This document shows positions 10,210-59,725 of a DNA stretch of 64,000 bases, in pieces. This DNA comes from an uncultured Oscillospiraceae bacterium. GTDB lineage: Bacteria; Bacillota; Clostridia; Oscillospirales; Oscillospiraceae. The stretch lies in contig CALWZP010000006.1 in the NCBI GenBank assembly GCA_944386055.1, positions 1 to 64,000 on the forward strand, given 5' to 3'. The position numbers and the translations under genes are program-made. The notes beneath the pieces are model-generated. The model had not been told where the DNA came from. It worked only from the letters and a program-made list of their open reading frames with translations, and made no database searches. Within the stretch, counting starts at the first letter, position 1. The number at the start of each line of letters is the position of its first letter.

Positions 10210-12008
10210 ACAACGGGTATACGGGGCTTATCCTGCGGGTGAACCTGAAGAAGGGAACCATCGTGAAGGAGCCTCTGAATATGAAAAACGCCGGGGACTT
10301 TGTGGGTGCCCGGGGACTGGCCACCAAGTACTTCTGCGACGAGTGCGATCCCCAGTGTGATCCCCTGGGACCGGAAAACAATCTGGTTTTTATGACCGGA
10401 CCCCTCACGGGGACCTGTGCTCCCTCGGCGGGGCGGTACAATGCGGTGGCCAAATCTCCCCTGACGGGGACCATTGGCGCGGCCAACTCCGGCGGCCACT
10501 TCGGCCCGGAACTGAAGTTTGCCGGATATGACGGCATCATTTTCGAGGATGTGTCTGACCATCCGGTGTACCTGTACATCAACGACGACCAGGTGGAATT
10601 GCGGGATGCCGGGCACCTGTGGGGGAAGGATGTGTATGAGACCACCGATTTGCTCAACGCCGAGTGCGGGGAGAGCTTCCGGGTGGCCTGTATCGCCCCC
10701 GCCGGGGAGAACGGCTGCCTGTTCGCCGGCATCATGAACGACAAGCACCGGGCCGCCGGCCGGGGCGGCATGGGCGCGGTGATGGGCGTCAAAAAGCTGA
10801 AAGCAGTGGTGGTAAAGGGGACCGGTTCGGTGCGGGTAGCACGGCCCAAGGAATTTTTCCAGGACTGCGCCGACGCCAGGGATACCCTGAAGGCGCACCC
10901 GGTGACGGGGGCGGGGCTGTCCGCCTATGGGACGCAGATTCTGGTGAATATCATCAACGCCACGGGAGCCATGCCCAAGAACAACGGACGGGACGGCTCT
11001 GTCTTCGCCGACGCGGATGATATCTCCGGCGAGACGCTCACCGCCAAGTACCTGCTGCGCAACAAGGGCTGCTTTGGCTGTTCCATTGGCTGCGGCCGGG
11101 TCACCGACATCAAGGAAGGGGCATTCAAGTCCAGGGGAGAGGGGCCTGAGTACGAGGCGGGCTGGTCCTTCGGCGCCGACTGCGGAGTCAATGACCTGGC
11201 GGCGGTGTGTGACGCCAACTTCCTGTGCAACCAGTATGGCATCGACCCCATCACCATGGGGGCCACCATCGCCTGCGCCATGGAGCTGTATGAGATGGGA
11301 GCCCTCCCCGAGAGCGACATCGGCTTCCCGCTGCGCTTCGGCGATGCAGCGGCCATGGTGCGGTGCACGGAGATGACCTGCAAGGGAGAAGGGTTTGGAA
11401 AGATTCTGGCTCTTGGATCCTATCGTATGGCGGAGAAATACGGCCATCCGGAGCTGTCCATGACGGTGAAAAAACAGGAGATGCCCGCCTATGACGGCCG
11501 GGCGGTGCAGGGCATCGGCCTGGAGTATGCCACCTCCAACCGCGGCGGATGCCATGTCCGGGGCTATGTCATCAGCCCGGAGGTGCTGGGGATCCCAATG
11601 AAGACCGACCCCCTGGTCACCGAAGGGAAGGCGGGGCTGCTGAAGACCTTCCAGGACCTCACCGCCCTGGTGGACTCCGCGGGGATGTGCCTGTTCACCA
11701 CCTTCGGCATCGGCCTGCCGGAAGTGGCCGCTGCCTATCGGGACGCGGTGGGCAGTGATGAGAGCGACGAGGACATCCTGCTGAAGGGGGAGCGCATCTG
11801 GAACCTGGAGAAGCAGTTCAACATCGCCGCCGGGGTGGAAAAGGATACCCTGCCTCCCCGCCTGCTGCGGGAGGAGCTGCCCGAGGGTCCGGCCCAGGGC
11901 AAGGTGAACCAGCTGCACACCATGCTGCAGGAGTATTACCAGCTGCGGGGCTGGACCGGGGAGGGAATCCCAACCCCGGAGAAGCTGCAGGCGCTGAGCC
12001 TGAAGTGA
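10206..12008 (+). CDS. Aldehyde:ferredoxin oxidoreductase, tungsten catalytic subunit (WorL/AOR)
   Basis: 600-residue AOR-family enzyme, close to the P. furiosus AOR length. It oxidises aldehydes to carboxylates at a tungsto-bispyranopterin. The [4Fe-4S] ligands are all present: Cys289, Cys292, Cys296 (CFGCSIGC) and Cys495 in DSAGMCLF, nearly the same positions as in the archaeal enzyme. Pterin-binding regions such as [15 protein letters not shown] and [14 protein letters not shown] are recognisable. It overlaps the ferredoxin gene by 4 bp and is followed by a MoaD-like carrier and NuoE/F/G-like subunits. The whole set fits an NAD- and ferredoxin-linked, electron-bifurcating aldehyde oxidoreductase of the type described in gut bacteria. 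Tungsten rather than molybdenum is inferred from the family. Confidence 0.92.
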
Positions 12009-12016
12009 CATCCCGT

Positions 12017-12068
12017 CCTCCGGGCCGCCGGAGAGATGGAACATGCCGCGCCGGAGGCAGCCCGGAGG
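12017..12068 (+). repeat. Structured intergenic spacer in the aldehyde oxidoreductase operon
   Basis: Inverted repeat CCTCCGGGC (12017-12025) / GCCCGGAGG (12060-12068) in the 96-bp gap between the AOR and MoaD-like genes, the only sizeable gap of the operon. There is no T-tract, so an RNA stability or processing element is more likely than a terminator. Confidence 0.35.
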
Positions 12069-12104
12069 GCGGCCTCCGGCACCGGCACACGGGAGGGGAA
12101 AGCC

Positions 12105-12386
12105 ATGACAGTGAAGTTTTTTGCCTATCTCCGGGACTCGGGATACGCCGGATGCAAGGAACTGCAGATGCCGGCGCCCGACACAGTGCGGACGCTGGGG
12201 GAGCAGCTCTCACACCGCTTCGGCCCGAAATTTCGGGGGGAGTTCTTTTCGCCGGCGGGAGACCAGCTGGGGGAGCGGATCATCGTCATGGTCAACGGAC
12301 GCCGGGTCGAGTTTCTGGATGGGGCGGACACGCCCCTGAGGGAGACGGACACAGTGCAGATCTTCCCCGTGGTGGCGGGCGGCTGA
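12105..12386 (+). CDS. MoaD/ThiS-family sulfur carrier protein
   Basis: 93-residue ubiquitin-like protein ending VVAGG. The C-terminal Gly-Gly is the site where MoaD/ThiS proteins are adenylated and thiocarboxylated for sulfur transfer to the pterin. GGGAGGGG stands 6 nt before the ATG at 12105; the frame is open further upstream without a site. Its place beside the AOR gene suggests a dedicated role in making the tungstopterin dithiolene of this enzyme. A second, distinct copy accompanies the other AOR gene (55243-55542). Confidence 0.85.
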   Translation: MTVKFFAYLRDSGYAGCKELQMPAPDTVRTLGEQLSHRFGPKFRGEFFSPAGDQLGERIIVMVNGRRVEFLDGADTPLRETDTVQIFPVVAGG

Positions 12387-12414
12387 ACGATTTTTGGAAA
12401 GGCGGTGGACCGCA

Positions 12415-12888
12415 TTGCAGGCTGAGATGGACCAGATCCTGGAGATCCTTCACCGGTATCCCCCGGAGAAGCGCCACTCCCTGGCGATTTTGCAGGATCT
12501 GCAGCATCACTTCAATTACATCCCCCGGGAGGGGATGGAGGCTTTGGCGGAGTATCTGGGGTGCCCTCTGTCCTCCCTGTACTCCATGGCCACCTTCTAT
12601 CGCGCCCTGAGCCTGAAGCCCAAGGGCAGGCACATCATCAAGCTGTGCGACGGCACGGCGTGCCATATCCGGGGGTCGGTGAACCTGGCGGGGGGGATCA
12701 CCCGCCTGCTGGGGATCGGAGCGGGGGAGACCACGGAGGACGGGCTGTTCTCCCTGGAGCTGGTGAATTGCCTGGGCTCCTGCGCCCTGGCCCCGGTGAT
12801 GGTGGTGGATGAGACCTACTACGGCAAGGTCACCCTGGAGAAGCTGCCGGAAATTCTGGCACAGTACCGAGAGGGGGCGGCGGAATGA
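12415..12888 (+). CDS. NuoE-like [2Fe-2S] subunit
   Basis: 157-residue thioredoxin-fold NuoE homologue. The [2Fe-2S] ligands are visible as CDGTAC (CX4C) and CLGSC (CX3C). It would relay electrons within a NuoEF-type flavoprotein module to or from NAD. The TTG at 12415 is chosen because AGGCGGTGG stands 6 nt upstream; a TTG at 12394 and an ATG at 12427 in the same frame are alternatives. The stop overlaps the NuoF-like start by 4 bp. Such C subunits occur in NADH-dependent hydrogenases and in bifurcating BfuABC-type complexes. Confidence 0.85.
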   Translation: MQAEMDQILEILHRYPPEKRHSLAILQDLQHHFNYIPREGMEALAEYLGCPLSSLYSMATFYRALSLKPKGRHIIKLCDGTACHIRGSVNLAGGITRLLGIGAGETTEDGLFSLELVNCLGSCALAPVMVVDETYYGKVTLEKLPEILAQYREGAAE

Positions 12889-14684
12889 CACGGACCATTC
12901 TGGTGTGCTGCGGCACCGGCTGCCTGGCCAACGGCAGCCTGGAGGTGGCGGACGAGTTCCGGCGCCTGATCGAGGCACGGGGGGCGGACGCCCGGGTGGA
13001 GTGCCAGGTGAAGCGCACCGGGTGCAACGGCTTTTGTGAGAACGGGCCCATCGTGAAGATCCTTCCCGACGACATCATCTATTACAAGGTGCGCCGCCGG
13101 GATGTCCAGGAGATCATGGACAAGACGGTGGCGGAGGGACAGGCGGTGGAGCGCCTGCTGTACCGGGACGACGGAGGGCGGCCGGTGCTGCACCAGCACG
13201 AAAATCCATTCTATGCCCCCCAGCACAAGATCGCCCTGCGCAACATCGGGGCCATCGACCCCACCCGGGTGGAGGACTATCTGGAGGCCGGAGGATATCA
13301 GGCGCTGCGGATGGCGCTGGAAATGACCCCGGCGGAGATCATCGAACAGGTGAAGCGCTCCGGCCTGCGGGGCCGGGGCGGTGCGGGCTTCCCCACCTGG
13401 CGGAAGTGGCAGGCTGCGGCGGAGCAGGAAAATTTCCCCAAGTATGTGGCCTGCAACGGTGACGAGGGGGACCCGGGCGCGTTCATGGACCGCTCGGTGC
13501 TGGAGGGAGACCCCCATACCGTGCTGGAGGGGCTGGCCATCTGCGCCCTGGCCATCGGGGCGGAGGAGGGCTTCCTCTACATCCGGGACGAGTATGGGCT
13601 GGCGGTGCGCAACATCACCGCCGCCATCGCCGACGCGGAGCGCCACGGGATTTTGGGTGAGAATGTGCTGGGCAGCGGCCGGCGGCTGAAGCTGAGCGTG
13701 GTGCGGGGCGGCGGCGCCTTTGTCTGCGGGGAGGAGACCGCCCTGATCGCCTCCATCGAGGGTAGCTGCGGCGAGCCCCGGCCCCGGCCGCCCTTCCCGG
13801 CGGAGAGGGGACTGTTCGGCCAGCCCACCGTGCTGAACAATGTGGAGACCCTGGCCAACATCCCCGTGATCCTGAAGGACGGAGGGGACGCCTTCGCCGC
13901 GGTGGGGACCGAGGGGAGCAAGGGAACCAAGGTATTTGCCCTGGTGGGCAAGGTGAAGCGCACCGGCCTGGTGGAGATCCCCATGGGAGCCACCCTGCGC
14001 CATCTGATCTTCGACATCGGCGGCGGGATCCAGAATGACCGGCCCTTTAAGGCGGTGCAGACCGGCGGCCCCTCCGGCGGCTGTATCCCCGCCCATATGC
14101 TGGACCTGCCGGTGGACTTTGACACCCTGAAAAGCCATGGGGCGATGATGGGCTCGGGCGGCATGATCGTCATGGATGACCGCAGCTGCATGGTGGAGGT
14201 GGCCCGGTACTACATCAATTTCCTGGCGGAGGAGAGCTGCGGCAAGTGCACCCCATGCCGGGAGGGACTGCGGAAGATGCTGGAGATCCTCACCGATATC
14301 TGTGAGGGCAGGGGACAGGAGGGAGATATCGAACTGCTGGAGGAGCTGGGGCACACCCTGCAGGACAGCTGTCTGTGCGCCCTGGGAAAGACGGCGCCCA
14401 ACCCGGTGCTCACCACCATCCAGTATTTCCGGGAGGAGTATGAGGCCCACATCCGGGAGCACCGCTGTCCCGCGGGGGTGTGCGTGAAGCTCACCTCCTT
14501 CCGCATCGACGGGGCAAGGTGCCGGGGGTGCACCGCCTGTGCCCGGGCCTGTCCCACCGGGGCGATTTCCGGCGGGGTGAAGCAGCCCCATGTCATCGAC
14601 CCCGCAAAATGCATCTCCTGCGGCAGCTGCCGGGAGGCGTGCCGCTTTGATGCGGTGGAGACTGAGGGGAGGGAAGCGGTATGA
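12885..14684 (+). CDS. NuoF-like NADH-binding flavoprotein (bifurcation-type subunit)
   Basis: 599-residue protein with four parts. First, a thioredoxin-like [2Fe-2S] N-terminus (CCGTGC...CNGFC, residues about 8-50). Second, an NADH/FMN core with GRGGAGFPTWRKW and NGDEGDPGAFMD. Third, a NuoF [4Fe-4S] site, SCGKCTPCREG plus a later Cys in CLCALGKT. Fourth, a C-terminal 2[4Fe-4S] ferredoxin domain (CRGCTACARACP, CISCGSCREACR). This long NuoF type occurs in NADH-dependent [FeFe]-hydrogenases, NADH-linked formate dehydrogenases and bifurcating oxidoreductases. Odd detail: the usual GFPTG loop reads GFPTW (Trp172). It overlaps both neighbours by 4 bp, implying a stoichiometric complex. Confidence 0.9.
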   Translation: MTRTILVCCGTGCLANGSLEVADEFRRLIEARGADARVECQVKRTGCNGFCENGPIVKILPDDIIYYKVRRRDVQEIMDKTVAEGQAVERLLYRDDGGRPVLHQHENPFYAPQHKIALRNIGAIDPTRVEDYLEAGGYQALRMALEMTPAEIIEQVKRSGLRGRGGAGFPTWRKWQAAAEQENFPKYVACNGDEGDPGAFMDRSVLEGDPHTVLEGLAICALAIGAEEGFLYIRDEYGLAVRNITAAIADAERHGILGENVLGSGRRLKLSVVRGGGAFVCGEETALIASIEGSCGEPRPRPPFPAERGLFGQPTVLNNVETLANIPVILKDGGDAFAAVGTEGSKGTKVFALVGKVKRTGLVEIPMGATLRHLIFDIGGGIQNDRPFKAVQTGGPSGGCIPAHMLDLPVDFDTLKSHGAMMGSGGMIVMDDRSCMVEVARYYINFLAEESCGKCTPCREGLRKMLEILTDICEGRGQEGDIELLEELGHTLQDSCLCALGKTAPNPVLTTIQYFREEYEAHIREHRCPAGVCVKLTSFRIDGARCRGCTACARACPTGAISGGVKQPHVIDPAKCISCGSCREACRFDAVETEGREAV

Positions 14685-15421
14685 CCATCACCATCGACGG
14701 GAAGATCTGCAGCTGCGAGAAGGGGGAAAAGCTGCTGGCGGTGGCACGCCGCAACCGCATCCCCATCCCCACCCTGTGTCACCACGAAAGCCTGCCGGGA
14801 CAGGCCAGCTGCCGGGTGTGCATCGTGGAGGTGGTGCAGCAGGGGCGCAGCACGGTGACCTCCGCCTGTGTTTACCCCGTGGAGGAGGGCATCCAGGTGT
14901 ACACCAACAGCGACCGCATCCGGCGGGAGCGGGGGATGATCCTGGCCCTGCTGCATAAGCGGGCGCCGGACAGCAGGCTCATCGCCGATATGTGCCGGAT
15001 CTACGGCGCCCCCGAGCTGAACCGGGTGTCGGTGTCCCTGCCGGGGAAGTGCATCCTGTGCGGTCTGTGTGTCCGGGCGTGCGCGGAGCTGAGCGTGGGG
15101 GCTATCTCCACGGTGAATCGCGGCGTCACCAAGGAGATCGCCACCCCCTATCACGAGCCCAGCGCGGTGTGCGTGGGCTGCGGCAGCTGTGCCAGCGTGT
15201 GTCCCACCGGGGCCATCGAGGTCACCGAGACGGCGGACACCCGCACCATCTGGGATAAGACCTTCCCGCTGGTGCGGTGCGCCCGCTGCGGCGCGCCCAT
15301 CGGCACCCGGGAGGAGCTGGACCACGCCGCCCGCAAGGCGGGGGTGGAGCGGGAGACTCTGTGTGAGCACTGCCGCCGGCGGAGCATGACCGATGTGCTG
15401 GCCGCCGCATACGGCGACTGA
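14681..15421 (+). CDS. NuoG-like iron-sulfur subunit
   Basis: 246-residue protein resembling the N-terminal part of NuoG/HydA. It has a plant-type [2Fe-2S] domain (Cys in CHHESLPGQASCRVC and SACV, residues about 33-66) and two [4Fe-4S] sites, CILCGLCVRAC and CVGCGSCASVCP. A C-terminal four-cysteine segment (CARCGAP... CEHC) may bind zinc or another cluster. It probably links ferredoxin to the NuoEF-like flavoprotein and the AOR ferredoxin subunit. Last gene of the operon, followed by a terminator. Confidence 0.86.
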   Translation: MTITIDGKICSCEKGEKLLAVARRNRIPIPTLCHHESLPGQASCRVCIVEVVQQGRSTVTSACVYPVEEGIQVYTNSDRIRRERGMILALLHKRAPDSRLIADMCRIYGAPELNRVSVSLPGKCILCGLCVRACAELSVGAISTVNRGVTKEIATPYHEPSAVCVGCGSCASVCPTGAIEVTETADTRTIWDKTFPLVRCARCGAPIGTREELDHAARKAGVERETLCEHCRRRSMTDVLAAAYGD

Positions 15422-21226: not shown

Positions 21227-22030
21227 ATGGCGCGGCCCAGAAAATGCAGGCGGATCTGCCACCTGCCCCCGGCGCGGGAATTCCGGCCGGAGGGGGAGGC
21301 GGAGGGTGAGGTGACCCTCACGCTGGACGAGGTGGAATGCCTGCGGCTGCTGGATGTGGAGGGGCTGACCCAGGAGCAGTGCGCGGCCCAGATGGAGGTG
21401 GCCAGGGCCACGGCGGCGCTGATCTGCGCCGCCGCCCGGGCCAAGGTGGCCGATGCACTGGTCCATGGCAGGATCATCCGCATCCAGGGGGGCGAGGTGG
21501 CTCTGTGCCGCCGCATGGGACGCTGCTGCGGCCGGTGCGGCGGAGAGGACTGTCCCCGCTGCCGGAACCGGGTCTGCGGACAGCGGCCGTTCCCGCCGGA
21601 AGGGAAAGGAAGCAAAGACATGAAGATCGCGGTGACTTATGAGGACGGACAGGTGTTCCAGCATTTCGGACACACCTCCCAGTTCAAGCTGTACACGGTG
21701 GAGGACGGCCGGGTGACGGAGAGCCGGGTGGTGGACACCGCCGGAGAGGGCCATGGGGCGCTGGCGGCGTTCCTGGTCCGCCACGGGGCGGACACCCTGA
21801 TCTGCGGCGGCATCGGCGGCGGCGCCCGGAACGCCTTGGCCCAGGCGGGCATCCGCCTGTACGGCGGGGTAAGCGGCAGCGCCGACGGCGCGGTGGAGGC
21901 CCTGCTGGCGGGAAGCCTGAACTACAACCCCGATGAGGCTTGCACACAGCACCAGGGAGAGGCGAACCACCAGTGTGCCCACCATCATGGAGAGGGACAT
22001 GAGGGCTGCCATTCGGGAAGCTGCACCTGA
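21227..22030 (+). CDS. DUF134 HTH protein fused to a NifX/NifB-type cofactor-binding domain
   Basis: 267-residue two-domain protein. Residues 1-about 110 are a DUF134 helix-turn-helix domain (MARPRKCRRICHLPP, LTLDEVECLRLLD, LTQEQCAAQM) ending in a Cys-rich knuckle (CCGRCGGEDCPRCRNRVCG). Residues about 132-235 form a dinitrogenase iron-molybdenum cofactor-type domain (MKIAVTYEDGQVFQHFGH, LICGGIGGGARNAL). The C-terminal tail is rich in His and Cys and probably binds metal. No nif genes are present; NifX-like domains also bind metal clusters in non-fixing anaerobes. A metal- or cluster-responsive regulator is a reasonable inference. Confidence 0.85.
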   Translation: MARPRKCRRICHLPPAREFRPEGEAEGEVTLTLDEVECLRLLDVEGLTQEQCAAQMEVARATAALICAAARAKVADALVHGRIIRIQGGEVALCRRMGRCCGRCGGEDCPRCRNRVCGQRPFPPEGKGSKDMKIAVTYEDGQVFQHFGHTSQFKLYTVEDGRVTESRVVDTAGEGHGALAAFLVRHGADTLICGGIGGGARNALAQAGIRLYGGVSGSADGAVEALLAGSLNYNPDEACTQHQGEANHQCAHHHGEGHEGCHSGSCT

Positions 22031-38609: not shown

Positions 38610-39953
38610 TCACGAGACTTCCCGGCAGAAGGGGGTGGCCCGGCGGTAGATGAACAGGGAGACGGCGGCGGAGAGCACCTCGGTGATCCAAAAGGCGTGC
38701 CAGACCCCGTCGGGGCCCAGGGGCCGGCTGAGCAGCCAGGCGATGGGCAGGATGAACACGGTGTACCGGCACAGGGCGATGACCAGGGAGGCGGTGCCCT
38801 TCCCCAGCCCCTCCAGGGCGCCGGAGGCGGTGACGGACACCCCGGAGATGAGGAAGCCCAGCGAGATGATGCGCAGGGCCCGGGCACCCTGGGCCACGGT
38901 ATCCGGGTTGTCGGTGAACAGCCCCAGCAGCCGGCCGGGGATGGCCAGGGAGAGCACGGTGCCCGCCAGCATCACGCCCAGGATCAGCAGCAGGGAGGTG
39001 CGGAAGATGCTCCGTACCCGGCGGTACTCCCCGGCGCCGTAGTTGTAGCCCATGAGGGGGCGGATGCCCTGGACGATGCCGTTGGCAGTGAGGTAGAGGA
39101 AGGTCTGCAGCTTGTAATACGCCCCCAGGATGAGGACATAGGACTGGGAAAAGGCGGCCAGGATGCCGTTGAGGCAGGAGATGAGCAGGGAGGGGAGGGC
39201 CAGATTCAGCGCGGCGGGGACGCCCACCCCATACATACGGCGCAGCAGCTCACCCTCTGGCCGCAGGCCCCGGAAGGGCAGGGCCATGGGCAGCCCGCCG
39301 GTCCGCCAGACGACGAGGTAGAGCGCCAGGGTGAGGGTCTGCCCCAGACCGGTGGCCACGGCGGCCCCCTCGATGCCCCAGGCGGGGAAGGGGCCGATGC
39401 CGAAGATGAGCAAGGGGTCCAGCACGATGTTGGCCACACAGCCGGCCAGCATGCACAGCATGGTCACCGTCATCTTCCCCACCGCCTGAAAGATCTTCTC
39501 AAAGGCCAGGGACAGGCCGATGGGAATGCAGAAGAGAAACACGATGTTGGAGTAGCGCAGTCCCAGGCTGAGGACGGCCTCTGAATCGGTGAACAGGGAC
39601 AAAAACCAGGGCATGCACACCAGACAGCCGATCATGAGGACCAGACCGTGGAGGGCGTTGAACAGGATGCCCAGACTGGCGGCCCGGCCCGCCCGGCCGG
39701 GCTGCTCCGCCCCCAGGAAAAAGGCGATCACTGCGTTCATCCCGATGCCGAAGCCGATGGTGACGGCGTTGACCAGGTTCTGAACCGGGTAGACCAGGGA
39801 GAGGGCGGTCATGGCGTCCTCGCTGATCTGGGCCACGAAATAGCTGTCCACGATGTTGTACAGCGAGTTGACCAGCATGGACAAGGTCATGGGCAGCGCC
39901 ATAGTGAGCACCAGAGGGAGGATGGGGCGCTGCTTCATCTGGATCTGATCCAT
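38610..39953 (-). CDS. MATE family efflux transporter
   Basis: 447-residue polytopic protein with 12 predicted helices and the MATE fold. The N-terminus LPLVLTMALPMTLSMLVNSLYNIVDSYF is characteristic. It exports drugs or metabolites using sodium or protons. AAAGGAG stands 7 nt before the ATG. A consensus promoter and a terminator hairpin precede the gene within the leader, suggesting transcription attenuation. Confidence 0.92.
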   Translation of the reverse strand: MDQIQMKQRPILPLVLTMALPMTLSMLVNSLYNIVDSYFVAQISEDAMTALSLVYPVQNLVNAVTIGFGIGMNAVIAFFLGAEQPGRAGRAASLGILFNALHGLVLMIGCLVCMPWFLSLFTDSEAVLSLGLRYSNIVFLFCIPIGLSLAFEKIFQAVGKMTVTMLCMLAGCVANIVLDPLLIFGIGPFPAWGIEGAAVATGLGQTLTLALYLVVWRTGGLPMALPFRGLRPEGELLRRMYGVGVPAALNLALPSLLISCLNGILAAFSQSYVLILGAYYKLQTFLYLTANGIVQGIRPLMGYNYGAGEYRRVRSIFRTSLLLILGVMLAGTVLSLAIPGRLLGLFTDNPDTVAQGARALRIISLGFLISGVSVTASGALEGLGKGTASLVIALCRYTVFILPIAWLLSRPLGPDGVWHAFWITEVLSAAVSLFIYRRATPFCREVS

Positions 39954-41336: not shown

Positions 41337-41429
41337 GGCCGCACCTCCATTTGGTTTATCAGCTTAAACTATTATACCATTCAATTTTTTCGACGCCACA
41401 TTGGGAAAGAAAATCGAGACGATTGAACG

Positions 41430-41474
41430 CACCCCGCCCATCAGACCATACCAAGAGGTCTGATGGGCGGGGTG
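41430..41474. terminator. Strong hairpin between the hydrogenase fusion and arsR
   Basis: Perfect inverted repeat of about 18 bp (CACCCCGCCCATCAGACC and complement). No T-run on either side, so terminator function is inferred from position beyond the end of the minus-strand fusion gene and upstream of the arsR promoter. Confidence 0.5.
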
Positions 41475-41562
41475 CGGATGTGTATCTCAACAGGGACCGG
41501 CTCCGCCGGCATCCGATTTTGACAGCGGCTTGGTGGGATGCGGCGGATCTGCGCGTGTTTCC

Positions 41563-44500
41563 TCAGCGGGCGCTGAAGTTTCGGTGGAGCAGCTCATGCT
41601 CCCGGCCGCGGATCAGGGTGCTCCACAGCACCTGCATGGATTCATTTTCCTGAGAGCTTCTCACCGGACTGGCCTCGTCCGCCTGGTACAGCCCCTGGCT
41701 GCGCTGGTCCCGGTTCTGATAGCGGATGTACTCGTCGGTGGGCTGTCCGCCGCCCATGACACAGCCGCCGGGGCAGGCCATGACCTCGATCAGGTCCAGC
41801 TCCTCCTCCCCGGACTGGACACGGCGGAGCAGCTCCGCCGCATTGCCCAGGCCGCTGACCACCGCGACGCGTACCGTCCGGTCCCCGGCCTGGATGGCGG
41901 CGCGCTTGATGCCCGCCGGCCCCCGGACGCCGGCATCCCGGATCCACTGGATGTCCTGATACCCCAGCTTGGGGCCCAGATAGCGCAGCACCGCCTCGGT
42001 CACGCCTCCGGTGGCGCCGAAGATGGTTCCGCCGCCGGAGCCGCCGGAGAAGGGGGCGTCCGCCTGGGCGGGGGTGCAGTGCTCCATGGTCAGTCCGGCG
42101 TCCGTCAGCATGTCCAGGAGCTCCGAGGTGGTCAGGGAGCAGGTCACATCCTGAACCCCTTCGGTGGTGGACTCGGGGCGCAGGATCTCCGCCTTTTTGG
42201 CGGTACACGGCATGATAGACACCACCGCCAGCTTCTTCCCGCAGCGGTGCTCCGGCTGACGGTACCAGGCCTGAATCACAGCGCCCAGCATCTGCTGGGG
42301 GGAGCGGCAGGTGGAGATGTTGGGGGCGAATTGCGGCCAGTTCTCCTCGCAGTATTTCACCCATGCCGGACAGCAGCTGGTGAGCAGGGGCAGCGGCCCC
42401 CCGGCGGCCAGCCGCTCCAGGAACTCGTTGGCCTCCTCCACCACGGTCAGGTCCGCGCTGTACACCGTGTCGTATACCTTGTCAAAGCCCAGGGCCTTCA
42501 GCGCGCCGATCAGCCGGGGCATGGAGTTTTTGCCCTTGGGGAAGCCGAGACAGCCGCCCACCCCCACCCGGACGGAGGGCGCCACCTGGGCCACCACCAG
42601 GGTGTCGGGGTCCGCGATGGCCTCCCGCACCCGGTCCACATCGGTCTTGATCCGCAGCGCCCCGGTGGGGCAGGCCGCGTGACACTGGCCGCAGCCCACG
42701 CAGCGGGAGTCCTTCAGGGTGCCTGCCGCCGCCATGACACGGGTGACCCCGTCCACGGTGCGGATCTCCAGGGCGCCGATCCCCTGGACCCCGGCGCAGC
42801 GGCGGACGCATTCTCCGCACAGGATACACTTCTCCGGGTCGATGACCACGCAGTCGGAGCTGCGGTCGGCGGGCAGCTCCAGATACAGGTCGGAGTTGTA
42901 ATAGCGCTCCTCGATATGGCAGTCGCGGTTCTTATAGATGTTGCACAGCAGACACCGTAGCTGGTAGGAGCCCATATAGCTGTCGCAGCCGTTGTCGCTG
43001 CTGGTGAGGATGTTGGCGTTGGATTCGGTCCAGCCGTAGTCCGGCGCGCCCGCCTCCGGATACCACCAGCCGAAGTCGCAGTTGATGACCCTGGGGTCCA
43101 TATCCGGCTCCAGCTTTGCCTTCTGGGTGATGCGGCCCCGGAAGGTGCGGATATAGACCCAGTCGCCCTCCTGGATCCCGTTGGCCGCGGCGGTGTCCGG
43201 GTGCATGCGTACCAGGGGGAAGGGATACTGGCGGCGCAGGGAGCGGATCTGCCGGTTGTTGGTGATGAAATACTGCATCCGCCGCCCGCCAGTGGTGAGA
43301 ATATAGGGGAACTCCCGGCTCAGATCGGGCCGGCTGACCGGGGTCACCGGCGGCTCCACCCAGCTGGGGAGGGGATCTCCGCCAACCGCCTCCATCTCCT
43401 TGGAAAAGAACTCAAACTTCCCGGTGGGGGTGGGGAAGCCGCCCCGGAGCTTGTAGTTGTAGTACCGGCGCTGGGGGACATAGTAGCCCTTTTCCTTCAG
43501 CTGATCGAAGGTCACCCCCTCCAGTTCGGGGAAGCTGCCGGCCATCTCGGCGATCTGCATGTCCAGAAGCTCCTTCTGGCTGTCCGCGCCGTAGCTGAGT
43601 CCCATCCGCTTCAGGATCTCGATGAAGACCTCCTCGTCCGGCCGGCATTCTCCCACCTGCGCCACCTTCTGCTGGCAGAGGATGGCGTGCTCGCTGAACT
43701 CCGGCATACAGAACACGCAGTCCAGCTCGGGCCACATGGCGGCGGGGAGAACGATGTCCGCCAGCTCCGCGGTGGGGGTCATGAAGAAGTCCATATAGGT
43801 GAAGAACTCGATGTCGTTCAGACACTCGTACACCCGTTTGCTGTCCGGCAGGGAGACGATGGAGTTGTTGGCGAAGGACAGCATGGCCCGGACCTTCAGC
43901 GGCCGTTCCGTCCGGATGGTGTCCAGAACCTGGTGGGGGTGGGCATAGGGCTTCAGCGCACGGTAGGGGTAGTAGTTGATGAGGTTGGGATCGGGCGCCC
44001 GGGGGTCCCGCTTGGTGGGGACGATGTGCTTGCTCTCCACAAAGCCGCCGGGCACATCGTAATTGCCGGTGATGGCGGGAATCATATAGATGGCGCGGCA
44101 GGTCTGGGTGGCGTTGAAGCTCTGCTCAAAGGCGCAGCCCCACTCCAGCCCCATGGGCTTTACCGTCGCCATCATCCGGGCCGCCTGGACGATCTGCTCC
44201 CTGGGGACCCAGGTGATCTGGGAGACCCGGTCCAGGTCATACTCCGCGCAGCGCTGCTTCAGCGCCTCAAAGCCATAGGTCCAGTTGTCCACGAACTCGT
44301 GGTCGTACAGGTCCTCCTGGATGATCACATTCAGGATCCCCAGGGCCAGGGCCCCGTCGGTGCCCGGCCGCAGCCGAAGCCACAGGTCCGCGTGGGCCGC
44401 CAGCTCGGTCTTCTGCGGGTCGATGACGATGAATTTGCTCCCGTGGCGGGCACACCGCTTGGGGTGCCACTGCAGTTCGCCGTCCGCGCCGCTGACGGTG

Positions 44501-45027
44501 GGATTGGCGCCCCACGCCACGATGCAGCGAGGCATCTGCTCGCCGTAATAGTCCACGCAGGAATAGGTGCCGGAGGTGGAAAACCCGGCGTTTTTCCTGG
44601 GGCCCAGGCAGATCAGAGCGCCCGCGGAGGTGATGTTGGGCGTCCCCAGCGCCTGGGTGAAGCGCCACAGATAGGGCACCAGGTGGCGGCCGGTGCCGGT
44701 GATGGCGGAGATGCAGGCGGGACCGTAGTCCCGGCGCAGCTGGGTCAGTTTATCGGCGATGGTGTCCAGCGCCTCGTCCCAGGTGATGCGCTCCCACTTC
44801 CCGCTGCCCCGGGGGCCGATCCGGCGCATGGGATATTTCAGACGGTCGGGGTGATACATTTGCTCGATGATGGTCATCCCTTTTTCGCAGGCATGCCCCT
44901 GATTCAGCGGTGCGTCCGGGTCGGGGCGCACCTTGACCACTTTGCCGTCCTCCACCGTGAGGATATGGATGCAGCCGCCGTGGCACCCACGGCATGCCGC
45001 GCGAAACTCTCCGGCTTTCAGTTCCAT
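41563..45027 (-). CDS. Molybdopterin oxidoreductase-[FeFe] hydrogenase fusion protein
   Basis: 1154-residue single polypeptide. Residues 1-about 690 are a Mo/W-bisPGD oxidoreductase: N-terminal [4Fe-4S] Cys12, Cys15, Cys19, Cys47, and probable metal ligand Cys140 in ALICLGPR. Residues 725-800 hold two [4Fe-4S] sites (CILCGEC from 734, CVGCGQC from 776). Residues 800-1154 are an [FeFe]-hydrogenase catalytic domain with all three H-cluster motifs: TSCCPAW (883-889), MPCTAKKAE (939-947) and MACPGGCVMGGGQP (1083-1096). The protein could couple oxidation or reduction of an organic or inorganic substrate to H2 turnover in one chain. The residue after Cys140 is Leu, not the His that follows Cys/Sec in formate dehydrogenases, so formate is doubtful. 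The ATG at 45027 follows AGGAG by 9 nt. A LysR gene diverges upstream. No frameshift is visible at the junction. Confidence 0.88.
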   Translation of the reverse strand: MELKAGEFRAACRGCHGGCIHILTVEDGKVVKVRPDPDAPLNQGHACEKGMTIIEQMYHPDRLKYPMRRIGPRGSGKWERITWDEALDTIADKLTQLRRDYGPACISAITGTGRHLVPYLWRFTQALGTPNITSAGALICLGPRKNAGFSTSGTYSCVDYYGEQMPRCIVAWGANPTVSGADGELQWHPKRCARHGSKFIVIDPQKTELAAHADLWLRLRPGTDGALALGILNVIIQEDLYDHEFVDNWTYGFEALKQRCAEYDLDRVSQITWVPREQIVQAARMMATVKPMGLEWGCAFEQSFNATQTCRAIYMIPAITGNYDVPGGFVESKHIVPTKRDPRAPDPNLINYYPYRALKPYAHPHQVLDTIRTERPLKVRAMLSFANNSIVSLPDSKRVYECLNDIEFFTYMDFFMTPTAELADIVLPAAMWPELDCVFCMPEFSEHAILCQQKVAQVGECRPDEEVFIEILKRMGLSYGADSQKELLDMQIAEMAGSFPELEGVTFDQLKEKGYYVPQRRYYNYKLRGGFPTPTGKFEFFSKEMEAVGGDPLPSWVEPPVTPVSRPDLSREFPYILTTGGRRMQYFITNNRQIRSLRRQYPFPLVRMHPDTAAANGIQEGDWVYIRTFRGRITQKAKLEPDMDPRVINCDFGWWYPEAGAPDYGWTESNANILTSSDNGCDSYMGSYQLRCLLCNIYKNRDCHIEERYYNSDLYLELPADRSSDCVVIDPEKCILCGECVRRCAGVQGIGALEIRTVDGVTRVMAAAGTLKDSRCVGCGQCHAACPTGALRIKTDVDRVREAIADPDTLVVAQVAPSVRVGVGGCLGFPKGKNSMPRLIGALKALGFDKVYDTVYSADLTVVEEANEFLERLAAGGPLPLLTSCCPAWVKYCEENWPQFAPNISTCRSPQQMLGAVIQAWYRQPEHRCGKKLAVVSIMPCTAKKAEILRPESTTEGVQDVTCSLTTSELLDMLTDAGLTMEHCTPAQADAPFSGGSGGGTIFGATGGVTEAVLRYLGPKLGYQDIQWIRDAGVRGPAGIKRAAIQAGDRTVRVAVVSGLGNAAELLRRVQSGEEELDLIEVMACPGGCVMGGGQPTDEYIRYQNRDQRSQGLYQADEASPVRSSQENESMQVLWSTLIRGREHELLHRNFSAR

Positions 45028-45079
45028 ATGCGATCCACTCCTGTCCAAGCCATGCTTGCTTTTTTCTGTCGCCTCCAGT

Positions 45080-45098
45080 ATAATCAATCAAAGATTAT
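45080..45098. promoter_or_regulatory. Candidate LysR operator
   Basis: ATAATC-N7-GATTAT, a LysR-type (T-N11-A) inverted repeat, centred in the 113-bp gap between the fusion gene and its divergent LysR gene. A second small palindrome TCGATTTTATCGA follows at 45108-45120. The minus-strand TATAAT overlaps the repeat. Confidence 0.6.
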
Positions 45099-45140
45099 AG
45101 GTAAAGTCGATTTTATCGATGGAGGAGATAGATCTGGTCT

Positions 45141-46082
45141 ATGGATGAACGGAGCTTTTCCACAAATTTGGAATATTACAAGAGCTTTTACTATGTGGTC
45201 AAATATGGAACCATCACGGCGGCCGCGGACTGCCTGTGTCTGACGCAGCCCACCGTCACCAGCGCCATCCAGAAGCTGGAGGAGCAGCTGGGCTGCACGC
45301 TGTTTCTGCGGACCAAGCGTGGGATGACCCTCACGGCGGAGGGAAAGATCCTGTGGGACCGGGTGGAGCCCGCCTGTCAGCTGCTTTTGTCTGCGGAGCG
45401 GGAGCTGGCCGCGGCCCAGAAGCTGGACGGAGGCAATCTGAGCATCGCCTCCACCGAGATGAGCTTCCGCACCTATGTGCTGCCCGCCATGGAGCGCTTC
45501 ACCCGGGATCACCCCAATGTGAAGGTGCGCTTCCGCAACGCGCCCCTGTCCGACAAAATCCTGGATATGATCCGCAACGGGGAAATTGACCTGGCCATCC
45601 TCCACGCCCCCTTCCAGGCCGGAGAACATCTGCAGACCAGGCTGATCGGCACCATTGAGGAGTGCTTTGTGGCGGGGCCGAAATACGCCTTTCTGGCGGA
45701 TGCGCCCCGCCCGGTGCCGGAGCTCCTGCAATATCCGTTTGTGTCCGTCCCCGAGGGCTCGTCTACCAAGCAGTATGTCAGCGGCATTTTTCAGCGGTAT
45801 GGCCTGGACTATGAGCCGGAGATGGAGGTCACCACCAGCGAACTGGTCATCCAGGCGGTGAAGCACAACCTGGGCCTGGCCATGCTCCCCTGGCAGCGGA
45901 TCCGGAAGGATGTGGACCGGGGCGAGCTGTTCCGCATCGACATCGGCGGCCCGCCCATGGAGCGAAAGGCCTACCTCATCACCCACGGGGAAATTCCGCT
46001 GGGACCGGCCGCCCGGGCCTTTGTGGACCAATACCTGCCCGCCCCGCCGGAGCGGGAGGAGAAAGCGGCCCCAAAGGGATAA
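45141..46082 (+). CDS. LysR family transcriptional regulator
   Basis: 313-residue LysR regulator: HTH with ITAAADCLCLTQPTVTSAIQKLEEQLG (about 25-51, read in two halves) and an effector-binding domain. It is transcribed divergently from the molybdopterin-hydrogenase fusion, with a LysR-type palindrome between them, so it is the probable switch of that gene. A GGAGGAGATAGATCTGGTCT region precedes the ATG at 45141. Ligand unknown; it would reveal the enzyme's substrate. Confidence 0.9.
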   Translation: MDERSFSTNLEYYKSFYYVVKYGTITAAADCLCLTQPTVTSAIQKLEEQLGCTLFLRTKRGMTLTAEGKILWDRVEPACQLLLSAERELAAAQKLDGGNLSIASTEMSFRTYVLPAMERFTRDHPNVKVRFRNAPLSDKILDMIRNGEIDLAILHAPFQAGEHLQTRLIGTIEECFVAGPKYAFLADAPRPVPELLQYPFVSVPEGSSTKQYVSGIFQRYGLDYEPEMEVTTSELVIQAVKHNLGLAMLPWQRIRKDVDRGELFRIDIGGPPMERKAYLITHGEIPLGPAARAFVDQYLPAPPEREEKAAPKG

Positions 46083-55569: not shown

Positions 55570-57423
55570 TCAGTCCTTCCAGAGGTCCGGAATGACATAC
55601 TCCAGTCCCAGTTTTTTCAGCGTCTCGGGCAGGGGCTTGCTGGTGGCCACATCCCAGCCGTTGCGCTTGTAGAAATTCTCGAACACATCCAGATCCCACA
55701 GCTTGGTGACAACCCCGGCGGTGGGGCCGTCCACCGGAGGCTGAGAGAACCGGGGGGAGACGGCGAGCTCCCGCTCCTTGGTCAGGCCGGCCCGGATGTT
55801 ATAGGCCCGGGCCAGAGACTTCACCCGCTCGCCCACGGTGAGCATTTCCTCGTTGTCCATGTCCCAGCCTGTGACCAGATTGATGAACTGGACCACGGGG
55901 CCCATCTTCCCTGCGGAGTAGAAGAAGCAGCTGCCATACACATCCATCAGCAGCCACTTGGTGTTGTTCCCGCCAAGATACCAGCCGATCTGGGCGAAGT
56001 TGGTGGGGTCCAGCGGCTCATTGTTGCCTACCTCGGGGTCGGGCCCGGCAAAGCCGCCGAAGGAGCCCGTCTCGGACAGAGTCAGATTGTAGTAGGCCAT
56101 GGGGGTCATACGCTCGTCCACCACATTGGGGGCGATGCCGCGGCCGGAGTAGACGCCGAAGTTCAGCGCCTCGCCGCCGATCATCTCGCAGATGTGCTTG
56201 ACGCCGCCGTACAGCTTTGCGCCAAAGCCCCTGCGGTGGGCGATGTCCTTGAGCAGCTGGTCCACGGCCTCGGTATTGCCCCAGGTCAGTTCCAGCCCGC
56301 CGGTGTCCTCCAGGGTGAGCAGTCCCTTCTCAAAGCACTCGATGACCAGGGAGATGACGAAGCTCATCTCCTTGCCGTCGAAGCCCAAATCCTCGCAGAT
56401 ATAACACAGACGGATGCCCTCGCCCATGTCGTCGTTGCCCATGTTGGTGGTGAAGCCGGCCAGGGGTTCAAACTCCGGTTCCTCCGCCACAAAGCCCTTG
56501 GCCTTGCCCTTCTTGATCTTGACCACGCCGGTGTGCGCCCACGGGCAGCCCCAGCAGGTGGTGCGGGTCTTGTCCGCCCACTCCTCCCGGTTTTCCATGG
56601 AGAACTGCTCGTAGTCATAGACATTGGTGGAATAGTTTTTGGTGGGAACGCCTGCCCGGGGGGGCAGATTGTCGAAATAACCCAGGGTGCCCACCCGCTT
56701 GACCATGTTGCCCAGGCCGCTGGCGGCTGCGGCCTCCAGAGCGTCCTTTCGGGCCTGGACAAAGTCGTCCGCCCAGGTGTCCACCGAGTTGTGCTCGGTG
56801 GAGATGATGATGGCCTTCAGCTTTTTGGAGCCCATCACCGCACCGGGGCCGTTGGTGGCCACTACATGGCCGTGGTCACACTCGATGCTGGCGTAGTGGA
56901 CCAGGTTCTCGCCGGCGGGGCCGATGCAGGCGGTGCTCTGATACTTGCCGCCGATCTCCGCCTCCAGCTCATCCTGAAGCTGCCAGGTGCCCATGCCCAG
57001 GTACTTTCCGGCGGGACGCAGCTCGATGCCGTCGTCCCGGATGACCAGAATGCTCCATTCCGGGGCCACATCCTCGATGATGATGGTCTCATAGCCCACA
57101 TGGCGCATCCGGGCACCGAAGTAGCCATTGGACTGGGCGGAGGTCATCAGGTCGGTGAGGGGGCCCAGGGTGGACACATGGACAATGCCGCTGCCGGGAT
57201 ATTTGGTGCCGTTGAGGGGCGCGGCCTGAAAAATGAGTTTGTTTTCCGGGTCAAAAGGCTTGACGGTTTCGGGGGGGACCTCGTCATAAAGAAGCTTGAT
57301 CCCGATGCCGTAGCCGCCCACGAATTTGCGGGTGGTCTCGGCATCGAGAACAGATTTGGTGATCTCTCCGGTACGGAGATTGATGCGGACCATGCGGTTC
57401 ACATAGGGAACACCGGATGCCAT
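55570..57423 (-). CDS. AOR-family tungsten oxidoreductase with an atypical cluster ligand
   Basis: 617-residue aldehyde ferredoxin oxidoreductase-family enzyme. Family segments: PGSGIVHVSTLGPLTDLMTS, VVATNGPGAVMGSKKLKAI, SMENREEWADKTRTTCWGC. The [4Fe-4S] ligands are Cys290, Cys293 and Cys499, but the third position is His297 (CWGCPWAH), where the family has Cys. Both AORs of the window were compared; the first has four Cys. No ferredoxin subunit is in the operon, so free ferredoxin may be the partner. Cotranscribed with an SDR, an MFS carrier and a MoaD-like protein. The start is uncertain: ATG 57423 (hairpin-bridged ribosome binding site) or ATG 57441 in the hairpin loop. Confidence 0.87.
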   Translation of the reverse strand: MASGVPYVNRMVRINLRTGEITKSVLDAETTRKFVGGYGIGIKLLYDEVPPETVKPFDPENKLIFQAAPLNGTKYPGSGIVHVSTLGPLTDLMTSAQSNGYFGARMRHVGYETIIIEDVAPEWSILVIRDDGIELRPAGKYLGMGTWQLQDELEAEIGGKYQSTACIGPAGENLVHYASIECDHGHVVATNGPGAVMGSKKLKAIIISTEHNSVDTWADDFVQARKDALEAAAASGLGNMVKRVGTLGYFDNLPPRAGVPTKNYSTNVYDYEQFSMENREEWADKTRTTCWGCPWAHTGVVKIKKGKAKGFVAEEPEFEPLAGFTTNMGNDDMGEGIRLCYICEDLGFDGKEMSFVISLVIECFEKGLLTLEDTGGLELTWGNTEAVDQLLKDIAHRRGFGAKLYGGVKHICEMIGGEALNFGVYSGRGIAPNVVDERMTPMAYYNLTLSETGSFGGFAGPDPEVGNNEPLDPTNFAQIGWYLGGNNTKWLLMDVYGSCFFYSAGKMGPVVQFINLVTGWDMDNEEMLTVGERVKSLARAYNIRAGLTKERELAVSPRFSQPPVDGPTAGVVTKLWDLDVFENFYKRNGWDVATSKPLPETLKKLGLEYVIPDLWKD

Positions 57424-57430
57424 AGTGCAG

Positions 57431-57463
57431 GAAGTCCGCATGGCGCGGACTTCTCCCTCCTTT
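57431..57463 (-). promoter_or_regulatory. Ribosome binding site with a hairpin before the AOR start
   Basis: Minus strand: AAAGGAGG (57463-57456), GA, then a perfect 9-bp hairpin GAAGTCCGC-GCCAT-GCGGACTTC (57453-57431), then 7 nt to the ATG at 57423. Linear distance is 32 nt; bypassing the hairpin leaves 9. The loop holds another in-frame ATG (57441) at 15 nt. It parallels the first AOR operon (9697-9732). Confidence 0.65.
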
Positions 57464-57546: not shown

Positions 57547-58392
57547 TCACAGGGTGACCAGCTTGAACTCCCGGGTGGGATTGGTGTACTCGTTGATGGC
57601 GTTCTGGCCATAGTCGATGTAGATGTGCTGGCCGCTCATATAGCTGGCCATGTCGCTGTTGGCAAAGATGATGGGGCCGGCCATCTCGGAGGGCTGGGCA
57701 TAGCGGGTCTCCTTCTGGCCCTGCATGGCCTTGGCGTCCAGCAGGGAGGCCCACTGGTCGGTGAGCTGGGTCTGGGTGGAGCCCGGGCAGATGATGTTGA
57801 TGCGGATGCCGCGGTCGGCAAAGAAAGCGGTCATCTTCTTCACATACCAGGTCATGGCGCGCTTGGACAGGAAATAGCCCTGCAGCCCCGCCATCTTTCC
57901 AAAGTCCTTTTTCTCCACACGGGCGGCCATCTCATTCAGTACCTGCATGGTGGCCTCATAGCCCTGCGCCTCCACCAGCGGGGTGAGCTCCTCCCGGGTC
58001 TCCAGCCAGCCGGTGCCGCCCAGAGAGCCCATCAGGGCGATGGCCCCGCCGTCCTGCATGCGCTGGGTGAGATAGTCGGCGATGATGTACTTGTGACCCA
58101 CAAAATTGATGGCCACGGTGGTCTTGAAATCGGTTTTGACGCCGGAGACACCGGCAATACCGAAGAAACGGTCAATGTGGTCAGGAAGCTGCGTGAACGC
58201 CTCGTCAATGGACGCTTTGTCGCCCAGGTTGACCTTGATGCTCTTTTCCACGGGAAGGGTGATCTCCGCAATGTCCATGGCATATACCTTGGCCCCCAGG
58301 TCCAGCAGCATCTCACAGGTGGCCTTGCCCATGCCGGATGCGGCGCCGGTGACCACACAGGTTTTTCCCTGATAGCCCAGATAGTCTTTCAT
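57547..58392 (-). CDS. Short-chain dehydrogenase/reductase
   Basis: 281-residue SDR using NAD(P)(H). The nucleotide motif TGAASGMGKATCEM is N-terminal; the catalytic Tyr-X3-Lys is in GYFLSKRAMTWY; a Ser lies in ALMGSLGGTGW, and INIICPGSTQTQL follows. AAAAGGAGG precedes the ATG. Insertion between the Ser and Tyr makes it somewhat longer than classic 250-residue SDRs. Between an MFS carrier and an AOR-family enzyme, it probably oxidises an alcohol or reduces a ketone of the imported compound. Steroid-type substrates are possible but unproven. Confidence 0.87.
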   Translation of the reverse strand: MKDYLGYQGKTCVVTGAASGMGKATCEMLLDLGAKVYAMDIAEITLPVEKSIKVNLGDKASIDEAFTQLPDHIDRFFGIAGVSGVKTDFKTTVAINFVGHKYIIADYLTQRMQDGGAIALMGSLGGTGWLETREELTPLVEAQGYEATMQVLNEMAARVEKKDFGKMAGLQGYFLSKRAMTWYVKKMTAFFADRGIRINIICPGSTQTQLTDQWASLLDAKAMQGQKETRYAQPSEMAGPIIFANSDMASYMSGQHIYIDYGQNAINEYTNPTREFKLVTL

Positions 58393-58462: not shown

Positions 58463-59725
58463 TTAGACCCACAGCTTGCGGGCGCGGTTATAGGCGATGA
58501 GGTTGAGCACCAGCGCCAGCACCATGCCGCCGGCGGCCACCGCGATGATGGTGTTATAAGTACCGGTGGTATCCAGAATGGCGGCGTAGATGGGGGCGGC
58601 CACCGAACTGACCAGCACGCCCACTGTGGCGGCCCAGCCGTAGATCTTGCCGTATTCCTTGTTGCCCATACTGCCGCGGATGAGCATGGGAGGAACCAGC
58701 TGCAGGGAACCGGCGGACATGCCGACCAGGAACGCGCCGATGAACACGGGCATCACGGCACCGTGAGAGGTGACCAGAGTGAACACGGCCACCAGCACCA
58801 GAATGACGGCGGCACCCAGCGTGGCCAGACCGCCCAGACGGTCGTTCACAAAGCCCAGCAGGATCTTGCCCACCACCAGGCCGATCATCATCAGAGAAGC
58901 CACGCGGGAGGCCTGGTCAATGGGGAAGCCCACACTGGTGGCGTAGTTGGTGATGTGGATCTGGAAGGAGCCATAGAAGTAGATGAGCATAATAGACAGA
59001 ATGATGAGATAGAAGAAAGGAGAGCGCAGGGCGTCCTTGGCGGTCAGCCCCTTATGGTCCTCCTCGCTGATGGCGGCGGTGTCCTGCCCGGGCTTATAGC
59101 CATAGGGGAGCAGCCCCTTGTCCTCGGGACGGGTGCGCAGCAGAAGGAGAGCGGCCAGGATGGAGATGACGCCGCCGATGGCGCCGGTGATCATGATGGC
59201 GGTGGTCCAGGAGAAGTTGGCGATCAGTTCGCCCACGATGGGGGCGAAGATAGCGCCGCCCAGGCCGGAGCAGGACATGGCGATGCCGGCGGCCAGGCCC
59301 ATGGAGGCGTGGAACCAGTTGTTCATCACGATGGGGATAAGCATGTAGCAGATGAAGGACAGGCCGATGCCGTTGACAACGGCGCCCACATACCAGCCGG
59401 CCACGCTGTTCATCAGACCGATGAGGATGGCGCCGCCGCCGCACAGAAGAGCGGCCAGAGCCACGGTGATGCGCACATCGTATTTCTTAAATACAAAGGC
59501 GGCCACCGGCTGGAACAGCGCCATGACCAGGGTGCGGATGGTGTCGTACACGGAGATGGCGGTCCTGGAGGTGCCTAAGGCCTCGGCAGCGGGGGTCATG
59601 TAGACTCCGATGCTGCCGCCCGACATGATTCCCATGGTGCCCAGCATGATCAGGCAGCAGCCGATCATGACGACCCAGGCGTAGTGAAACCGGGATTGAG
59701 TGCCGATGGTGTTGTTGGTTGACAT
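58463..59725 (-). CDS. MFS transporter (OFA-like)
   Basis: 420-residue major facilitator with 12 helices, similar to the oxalate/formate antiporter-like subgroup (N-terminus FHYAWVVMIGCCLIMLG). It begins the minus-strand operon with the SDR, AOR and MoaD-like genes, so it probably imports or exports their substrate or product (an acid or small organic anion). GGAGG stands 12 nt before the ATG. It is a divergently oriented paralogue of the transporter at 60036-61307. Confidence 0.88.
   Translation of the reverse strand: MSTNNTIGTQSRFHYAWVVMIGCCLIMLGTMGIMSGGSIGVYMTPAAEALGTSRTAISVYDTIRTLVMALFQPVAAFVFKKYDVRITVALAALLCGGGAILIGLMNSVAGWYVGAVVNGIGLSFICYMLIPIVMNNWFHASMGLAAGIAMSCSGLGGAIFAPIVGELIANFSWTTAIMITGAIGGVISILAALLLLRTRPEDKGLLPYGYKPGQDTAAISEEDHKGLTAKDALRSPFFYLIILSIMLIYFYGSFQIHITNYATSVGFPIDQASRVASLMMIGLVVGKILLGFVNDRLGGLATLGAAVILVLVAVFTLVTSHGAVMPVFIGAFLVGMSAGSLQLVPPMLIRGSMGNKEYGKIYGWAATVGVLVSSVAAPIYAAILDTTGTYNTIIAVAAGGMVLALVLNLIAYNRARKLWV

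Follow-up and report, generated by a model that had tools for sequence, protein, structure and literature searches.

The 64,000-nucleotide stretch of DNA analysed here (the window; positions 1 to 64,000 of the forward strand of contig CALWZP010000006.1, assembly GCA_944386055.1) derives from an uncultured Oscillospiraceae bacterium and carries, on its minus strand, a gene that joins a molybdenum or tungsten (Mo/W) oxidoreductase to an [FeFe] hydrogenase in a single polypeptide. The frame is open for 1,154 residues, from an ATG at 45027 to a stop at 41563; the plus-strand frame at the same coordinates was checked and is not open. An earlier sequence-only reading of the window had placed an uninterrupted frame of this length at exactly these coordinates without naming the strand. 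The residues that it picked out are all present in the translation: Cys12/15/19/47, Cys140, the cysteines of both ferredoxin clusters (from residues 734 and 776), the three H-cluster motifs (883–889, 939–947 and 1083–1096) and Ser905 after NI. Pfam and NCBIfam models found all domains of the protein in the expected order. The features of the locus are listed below.

41563–45027, minus: fusion gene, Mo/W oxidoreductase, two [4Fe-4S] sites and [FeFe] hydrogenase, 1,154 residues (Pfam, NCBIfam, homologues, AlphaFold)
45077–45105, minus: candidate promoter TTTACC-17-TATACT in the intergenic region between the fusion and LysR genes (consensus match only)
45038–45042, minus: ribosome-binding site AGGAG, 10 nt 5' of the ATG (sequence)
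44851–45003, minus: Molybdop_Fe4S4 domain, residues 9–59, with the CRGCHGGC motif and [4Fe-4S] ligands C12/C15/C19/C47 (PF04879, E 7.8e-15; ligands invariant)
43609–44844, minus: molybdopterin oxidoreductase domain, residues 62–473 (PF00384, E 9.2e-40)
44608–44610, minus: Cys140, the predicted Mo/W ligand, followed by Leu141 (alignment to Sec140-His141 of FdhF and to Cys-His of the FdhF of hydrogen-dependent CO2 reductase, HDCR)
42994–43302, minus: Molydop_binding domain, residues 576–678 (PF01568, E 5e-19)
42853–42930, minus: junction, residues about 700–725 (C695 and C703, just before and in the junction, invariant)
42652–42849, minus: two ferredoxin-like [4Fe-4S] sites, residues 727–792 (Fer4_10 and other Pfam models; ligands invariant)
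41749–42597, minus: [FeFe] hydrogenase H-domain (Fe_hyd_lg_C), residues 811–1093 (PF02906, E 3.5e-81; TIGR02512)
42361–42381, minus: H-cluster motif 1, TSCCPAW, residues 883–889 (translation, alignment)
42187–42213, minus: H-cluster motif 2, MPCTAKKAE, residues 939–947 (translation, alignment)
41740–41781, minus: H-cluster motif 3, MACPGGCVMGGGQP, residues 1083–1096 (translation, alignment)
41566–41715, minus: Fe_hyd_SSU C-terminal domain, residues 1105–1154 (PF02256, E 2.7e-7)
41429–41475, minus: perfect 19-bp hairpin, a predicted terminator, from about 90 bases past the stop (-46.6 kcal/mol, z -9.1)
45141–46082, plus: divergent LysR-type regulator (Pfam LysR), starting about 113 bases from the fusion gene

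The gene, with the predicted hairpin terminator behind it, appears to be monocistronic. GC and third-position GC are similar in its two halves (0.64/0.88 versus 0.69/0.89). The protein sequence carries no Tat-type signal, and a cytoplasmic location is therefore expected.

The C-terminal half has every motif and ligand of a group A [FeFe] hydrogenase and is thus complete. The protein scores 419.4 bits against TIGR02512, the model for this group (cut-off 405.95), and in an alignment of five fusions all cluster ligands are invariant, including the H-cluster ligand cysteines of TSCCPAW, MPCTAKK and MACPGGC and those of the ferredoxin-type clusters (Cys734/737/740/744 and Cys776/779/782/786). The proton-path residues of the clostridial enzyme CpI (C885, E865, E868, R872 and S905) are likewise present and invariant, and the CpI structure superimposes on the hydrogenase half of an AlphaFold model with Z 54 (2.2 Å over 446 residues). 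An additional [4Fe-4S] site in the linker, comparable to the His-ligated cluster of CpI, was considered and rejected, as only C695 and C703 are invariant and the ligand set is incomplete. The host genome encodes the maturase HydG (904 bits; G000:C1:33651-35060) and has a second, separate HydA.

The N-terminal half (residues 1–700) is, from its domain content, a complete Mo/W subunit of the dimethyl sulfoxide (DMSO) reductase family. The sequence-only reading was thus right to place both enzymes, each complete, in one chain, which sets the protein apart from HDCR with its separate subunits (PMC8924675). By the criterion taken from PMC7028382, in which catechol dehydroxylases branch next to acetylene hydratase, the Mo half lies closer to acetylene hydratase and to the Gordonibacter and Eggerthella enzymes than to other families with a bis-molybdopterin guanine dinucleotide (bis-MGD) cofactor. 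Dehydroxylase-like homologues from Gordonibacter are 35–37% identical to it and have the CHxGC motif in common; they are included in our tree of the Mo half, which has no named characterized enzyme among its members.

The same reading had proposed a search for this architecture and its distribution, and had pointed to a hidden stop and start near residue 700 as a possible flaw. Run on genome contigs, the search returned uninterrupted fusions in six other genomes; the frame crosses the junction in each of these independent genomes, which excludes such a flaw and shows that the fusion is not an assembly error. Four full-length fusions came from the initial contig scan (L009, L012, L010 and L011; 83, 79, 73 and 72% identical) and two more, L057 (70% identical) and the divergent L059 (48%), from surveys of related genomes. 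L010 belongs to a Synergistaceae metagenome-assembled genome, the other five to Oscillospiraceae or to the family of the window itself. The fusion is rare: it occurs in 2 genomes from the order sample of 394, in 6 from the family sample of 400 and in 1 from the Synergistes-order sample of 183. About fifteen relatives carry the Mo half alone. One further protein, L060 (G504:C19, 1471-3921, minus), comprises 817 residues with the Mo half and both ferredoxin sites; its H-domain is absent, an unrelated gene follows, and it has the form of a natural intermediate between fused and unfused proteins. At another locus (L016, in the Synergistaceae genome G008) the end of the Mo protein resembles a remnant of the linker, and the genome has no match to a group A [FeFe] hydrogenase at E 1e-60.

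The seven fused proteins group as a single clade in the hydrogenase-half tree (SH-like approximate likelihood-ratio support, SH-aLRT, 96; L059 on a long branch). Fused and unfused proteins are intermixed in the Mo-half tree, where a single clade of fused proteins is rejected by the approximately unbiased (AU) test (P = 2.9e-5 for the six core proteins, 1e-39 for all seven). Both trees are explained if one old fusion was succeeded by multiple losses of the hydrogenase half, and this is the best reading of these sequences; repeated transfer of the hydrogenase half would be a less simple alternative.

Genes surrounding the relatives of the fusion were read against the phloroglucinol pathway of Clostridium scatologenes (PMC10470551). 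At L013, the order is 3HCDH (TfD-like), BKACE (TAL-like), SDR (PGR-like), thiolase, CoA transferase, cyclase (DPGC-like), transporter and the unfused Mo enzyme, and at L017 a corrinoid protein and a URO-D-type methyltransferase accompany the unfused Mo enzyme, an SDR, a 3HCDH and a cyclase. The unfused homologues inside such phloroglucinol-type clusters show 60–75% identity. Homologues of DPGC (64–82% identical) and TAL occur in all five of the first-found fusion genomes; this search, like the comparison with PGR and PgtL, used concatenated protein queries read by query range. A fused gene itself stands beside the cyclase gene at L123 (G461:C3, 9-7119), in the order dpgC - merR - fusion - lysR with about 1.7 kb between fusion and dpgC, and the MerR protein there is 46% identical to the MerR beside dpgC in the window's own genome.

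In the family sample of 400 genomes, 17 of the 23 that carry the Mo family have DPGC, compared with 53 of the other 377 (Fisher P 1e-9). Counted by genus, the figures are 11 of 15 versus 21 of 91 (P 2.5e-4), a count that accounts for kinship only in part. The query for this survey was a chimera of two homologues, with the N-terminus from the Oscillospiraceae locus L040 and the remainder from L013, and was again read by query range. In the host of the window, DPGC and TfD adjoin a modC-like ABC transporter gene, with moaA-, mobB- and moeA-like genes farther along, which we read as genes for molybdate uptake and molybdenum cofactor synthesis. Fusion hosts carry homologues of the pyrogallol transhydroxylase PgtL/PgtS; in the window's host the pair, with matches to the structure of pyrogallol hydroxytransferase (E 4.5e-208 and 2.6e-45), is followed by thiolase, TAL and CoA transferase genes. 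A role for the fusion as phloroglucinol reductase, considered in case the host lacked PGR, was dropped: the host has several SDRs, of which the best is 45% identical to the PGR candidate of L013, and they do not discriminate. At a separate locus (L132; G523:C113, 495-10028), an unfused Mo relative lies among a cyclase-like gene, small genes and genes for a xanthine-dehydrogenase-like Mo hydroxylase, which by eye resemble another ring-degradation cluster.

Because the nearest characterized redox relatives of the Mo half remove phenolic hydroxyl groups and the genes neighbouring its relatives degrade polyhydroxybenzenes, we tentatively favour, at a little below even chances, a single-chain cytoplasmic enzyme that couples H2, probably by consuming it, to dehydroxylation or hydroxyl movement on polyhydroxybenzenes. 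The components of this proposal differ in strength: working H2 coupling is highly probable, and we infer a phenolic substrate with some confidence and the reductive direction at about evens. In such an enzyme, most likely one for reductive dehydroxylation, H2 would be split at the H-cluster, and the electrons would travel through the two ferredoxin-type clusters and the N-terminal [4Fe-4S] cluster to the Mo/W site, where a polyphenol (for example 1,2,3,5-tetrahydroxybenzene, pyrogallol or a catechol) would shed a hydroxyl group as water; the product would then feed or tidy the phloroglucinol pathway. The AlphaFold model has one confident arrangement (pLDDT 90.9, pTM 0.89), and it is plausible that electrons pass between the two active sites at a fixed stoichiometry. 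Structural alignments to CpI begin at model residue 43–44, and the model only hints that the N-terminal cluster domain may sit where CpI has its accessory clusters.

H2 as the donor would fit published precedents: 21-dehydroxylation by Eggerthella is driven by H2 through a gene cluster containing a molybdopterin oxidoreductase (PMC11835702), and the breakdown of phloroglucinol and of catechin acts as an H2 sink (PMC5633678, PMC12203004). A wider proposal is that of a hydrogen:polyphenol oxidoreductase in a single chain, with which intestinal Oscillospiraceae and Synergistaceae would dehydroxylate plant polyhydroxybenzenes using H2 itself and neither ferredoxin nor NAD(P)H, so that polyphenol breakdown would consume H2 and compete with methanogenesis by a direct enzymatic route; it is possible but is put forward more cautiously still. 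Several observations weigh against H2-driven dehydroxylation. The closest homologue of the Mo half with a solved structure, acetylene hydratase, carries out a reaction with no net redox change; loss of the hydrogenase half has recurred, so that H2 would be dispensable for the Mo chemistry in some hosts; the host already has a pyrogallol transhydroxylase, from which the role of the fusion must differ; and the genome of the divergent fusion (G446, 80% complete) gave no DPGC match.

If the coupling ran in reverse, the Mo/W site would hydroxylate a phenol such as phloroglucinol or resorcinol with water, and the electrons would exit as H2. Group A [FeFe] hydrogenases run in either direction, but at the H2 pressure of the gut most phenol hydroxylations that release H2 would be energetically unfavourable. 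The reaction could supply 1,2,3,5-tetrahydroxybenzene, the co-substrate needed by pyrogallol transhydroxylase, and the PgtL/PgtS homologues of the fusion hosts speak in its favour, as does the existence of a resorcinol hydroxylase (RhL) in the DMSO reductase family (PMC10100899). However, RhL and PgtL, the known hydroxylases, belong to another subfamily and use Ser as metal ligand (PMC10100899), whereas the fusion, with Cys140, clusters with acetylene hydratase and dehydroxylase-like proteins; overall, we regard reverse coupling as unlikely. The Cys ligand and N-terminal cluster, together with PgtL/PgtS being encoded elsewhere in the host, also led us to reject a simple pyrogallol transhydroxylase.

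Somewhat more doubtful is an enzyme without net electron transfer (catalysing hydroxyl transfer, hydration or isomerization), in which the hydrogenase half would be a built-in, H2-powered activator that keeps the Mo/W site and Fe-S clusters reduced. Acetylene hydratase provides a non-redox precedent, and close unfused homologues work without a hydrogenase; given the repeated losses, the Mo half can evidently function alongside a different partner or with no net electron flow, so that such redox poising stays in contention. Moreover, in genomes G005 and G007 the unfused enzyme lies beside phloroglucinol-type genes without a PgtL match in either genome, and could form phloroglucinol by hydroxyl transfer. 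On the other side, full catalytic machinery together with a strictly conserved proton path seems more than an activator would need, and Asp13, the catalytic residue of acetylene hydratase, is replaced by His16.

A one-chain formate system, making formate from H2 and CO2 or acting as a formate hydrogenlyase (FHL), is very improbable. Its cofactors would be those of HDCR, and the FdhF proteins of HDCR and of E. coli are among the PDB matches; however, Cys140-Leu141, invariant in the five fusions, aligns to Sec140-His141 of FdhF, so that the formate dehydrogenase His is absent, the protein scores 312.7 bits against TIGR01591 (formate dehydrogenase; cut-off 666.25), and the gene context is phenolic. 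For these reasons and the polyphenol kinship, formate dehydrogenase or HDCR identity of the Mo half was rejected, and the comparison with formate systems drawn by the sequence-only reading was misleading. That the fusion is an assembly or annotation artefact, or that its halves are separate proteins in the cell, is scarcely credible: the public genomes used are mostly metagenome-assembled and unfused homologues exist, but continuous frames occur in seven genomes from two phyla at 48–84% identity, both halves diverge in step and the predicted fold is compact (pTM 0.89).

The divergent LysR-type protein is probably an effector-responsive regulator of the fusion. Its orthologues (52–75% identical) adjoin the fusion in L009, L012, L057 and L010 as well as in the window; as this includes the Synergistaceae locus L010, gene and regulator have moved or stayed together across phyla. 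A MATE transporter gene lies near the fusion (38610–39953, minus), and in L009 and L014 the fusion or its unfused relative likewise has a MATE-like gene downstream. Elsewhere in the window, an AFOR-family tungsten oxidoreductase, a NuoE/F-like flavoprotein and a 2Fe-2S/4Fe-4S NuoG-like protein are encoded in succession (10206–15421, plus), presumably forming an NAD-linked, perhaps electron-bifurcating, aldehyde oxidoreductase of Wor/Bfu type. A second AFOR-family gene (55570–57441, minus) stands beside an MFS transporter gene (58463–59725) and an SDR gene (57547–58392), whose product has no detectable likeness to the PGR candidates. DUF134 is joined to a NifX-like FeMo-co binding domain at 21227–22030 (plus).

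No description of a fused Mo-[FeFe] hydrogenase protein was found in the literature searched, which lay mostly outside subscription journals, and a review of [FeFe] hydrogenase diversity nowhere mentions molybdenum or fusion. HDCR and FHL already exemplify the wiring of a hydrogenase to a Mo/W enzyme; what is new is the arrangement in one chain and the probable class of substrate. The fusion recurs, though rarely, in other gut bacteria with genes for phloroglucinol breakdown, so that one step in the digestion of plant polyphenols may be driven directly by H2. Were H2 the reductant, gut H2 and polyphenol chemistry would be joined in one molecule, and two questions could be put to the test with the enzyme itself: what causes the fall in H2 and methane with phloroglucinol or catechin (PMC5633678, PMC12203004), and by what means H2 can drive dehydroxylation by the molybdoenzymes of gut bacteria (PMC11835702). 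Being self-contained, the fusion would also be convenient as an H2-driven biocatalyst, and the repeated loss of its hydrogenase offers a natural experiment on the acquisition and shedding of electron modules by redox enzymes.

Among known systems, HDCR (FdhF-HycB3/4-HydA2) and formate hydrogenlyase likewise wire a Mo/W bis-MGD enzyme through Fe-S clusters to a hydrogenase, and HydA2 of HDCR is structurally related to the C-terminal half (Z 43.5). By contrast, the fusion is a single polypeptide, its Mo half is not a formate dehydrogenase and no HycB-like gene adjoins it at the locus. The closest solved structure of the Mo half is acetylene hydratase of Pelobacter acetylenicus (PDB 2e7z; E 2e-96 by sequence, Z 40.5 and 2.4 Å over 675 residues), in which the position of the Cys ligand is aligned; however, its Asp13, after the second cluster cysteine (CxxCD), corresponds to His16 in the fusion (CRGCH), which also differs in its attached hydrogenase and phenolic gene context. 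The gut catechol dehydroxylases of Eggerthella and Gordonibacter (Cldh, Dadh and Hcdh) belong to the same family branch, beside acetylene hydratase, but have no described hydrogenase domain, and their identity to the fusion is too low for their substrates to be transferred to it. Pyrogallol-phloroglucinol transhydroxylase (PgtL/PgtS, PDB 4v4c), encoded in the same host genome, is also a Mo enzyme acting on polyhydroxybenzenes, but it has a Ser ligand, no N-terminal cluster and a separate Fe-S subunit, and matches the Mo half of the fusion only at E 9e-11. Finally, the C-terminal 430 residues share motifs, two F-clusters, proton path and fold with group A [FeFe] hydrogenases such as CpI and the HydA of HydABC, whereas in the fusion a whole molybdoenzyme stands in place of their N-terminal accessory domains.

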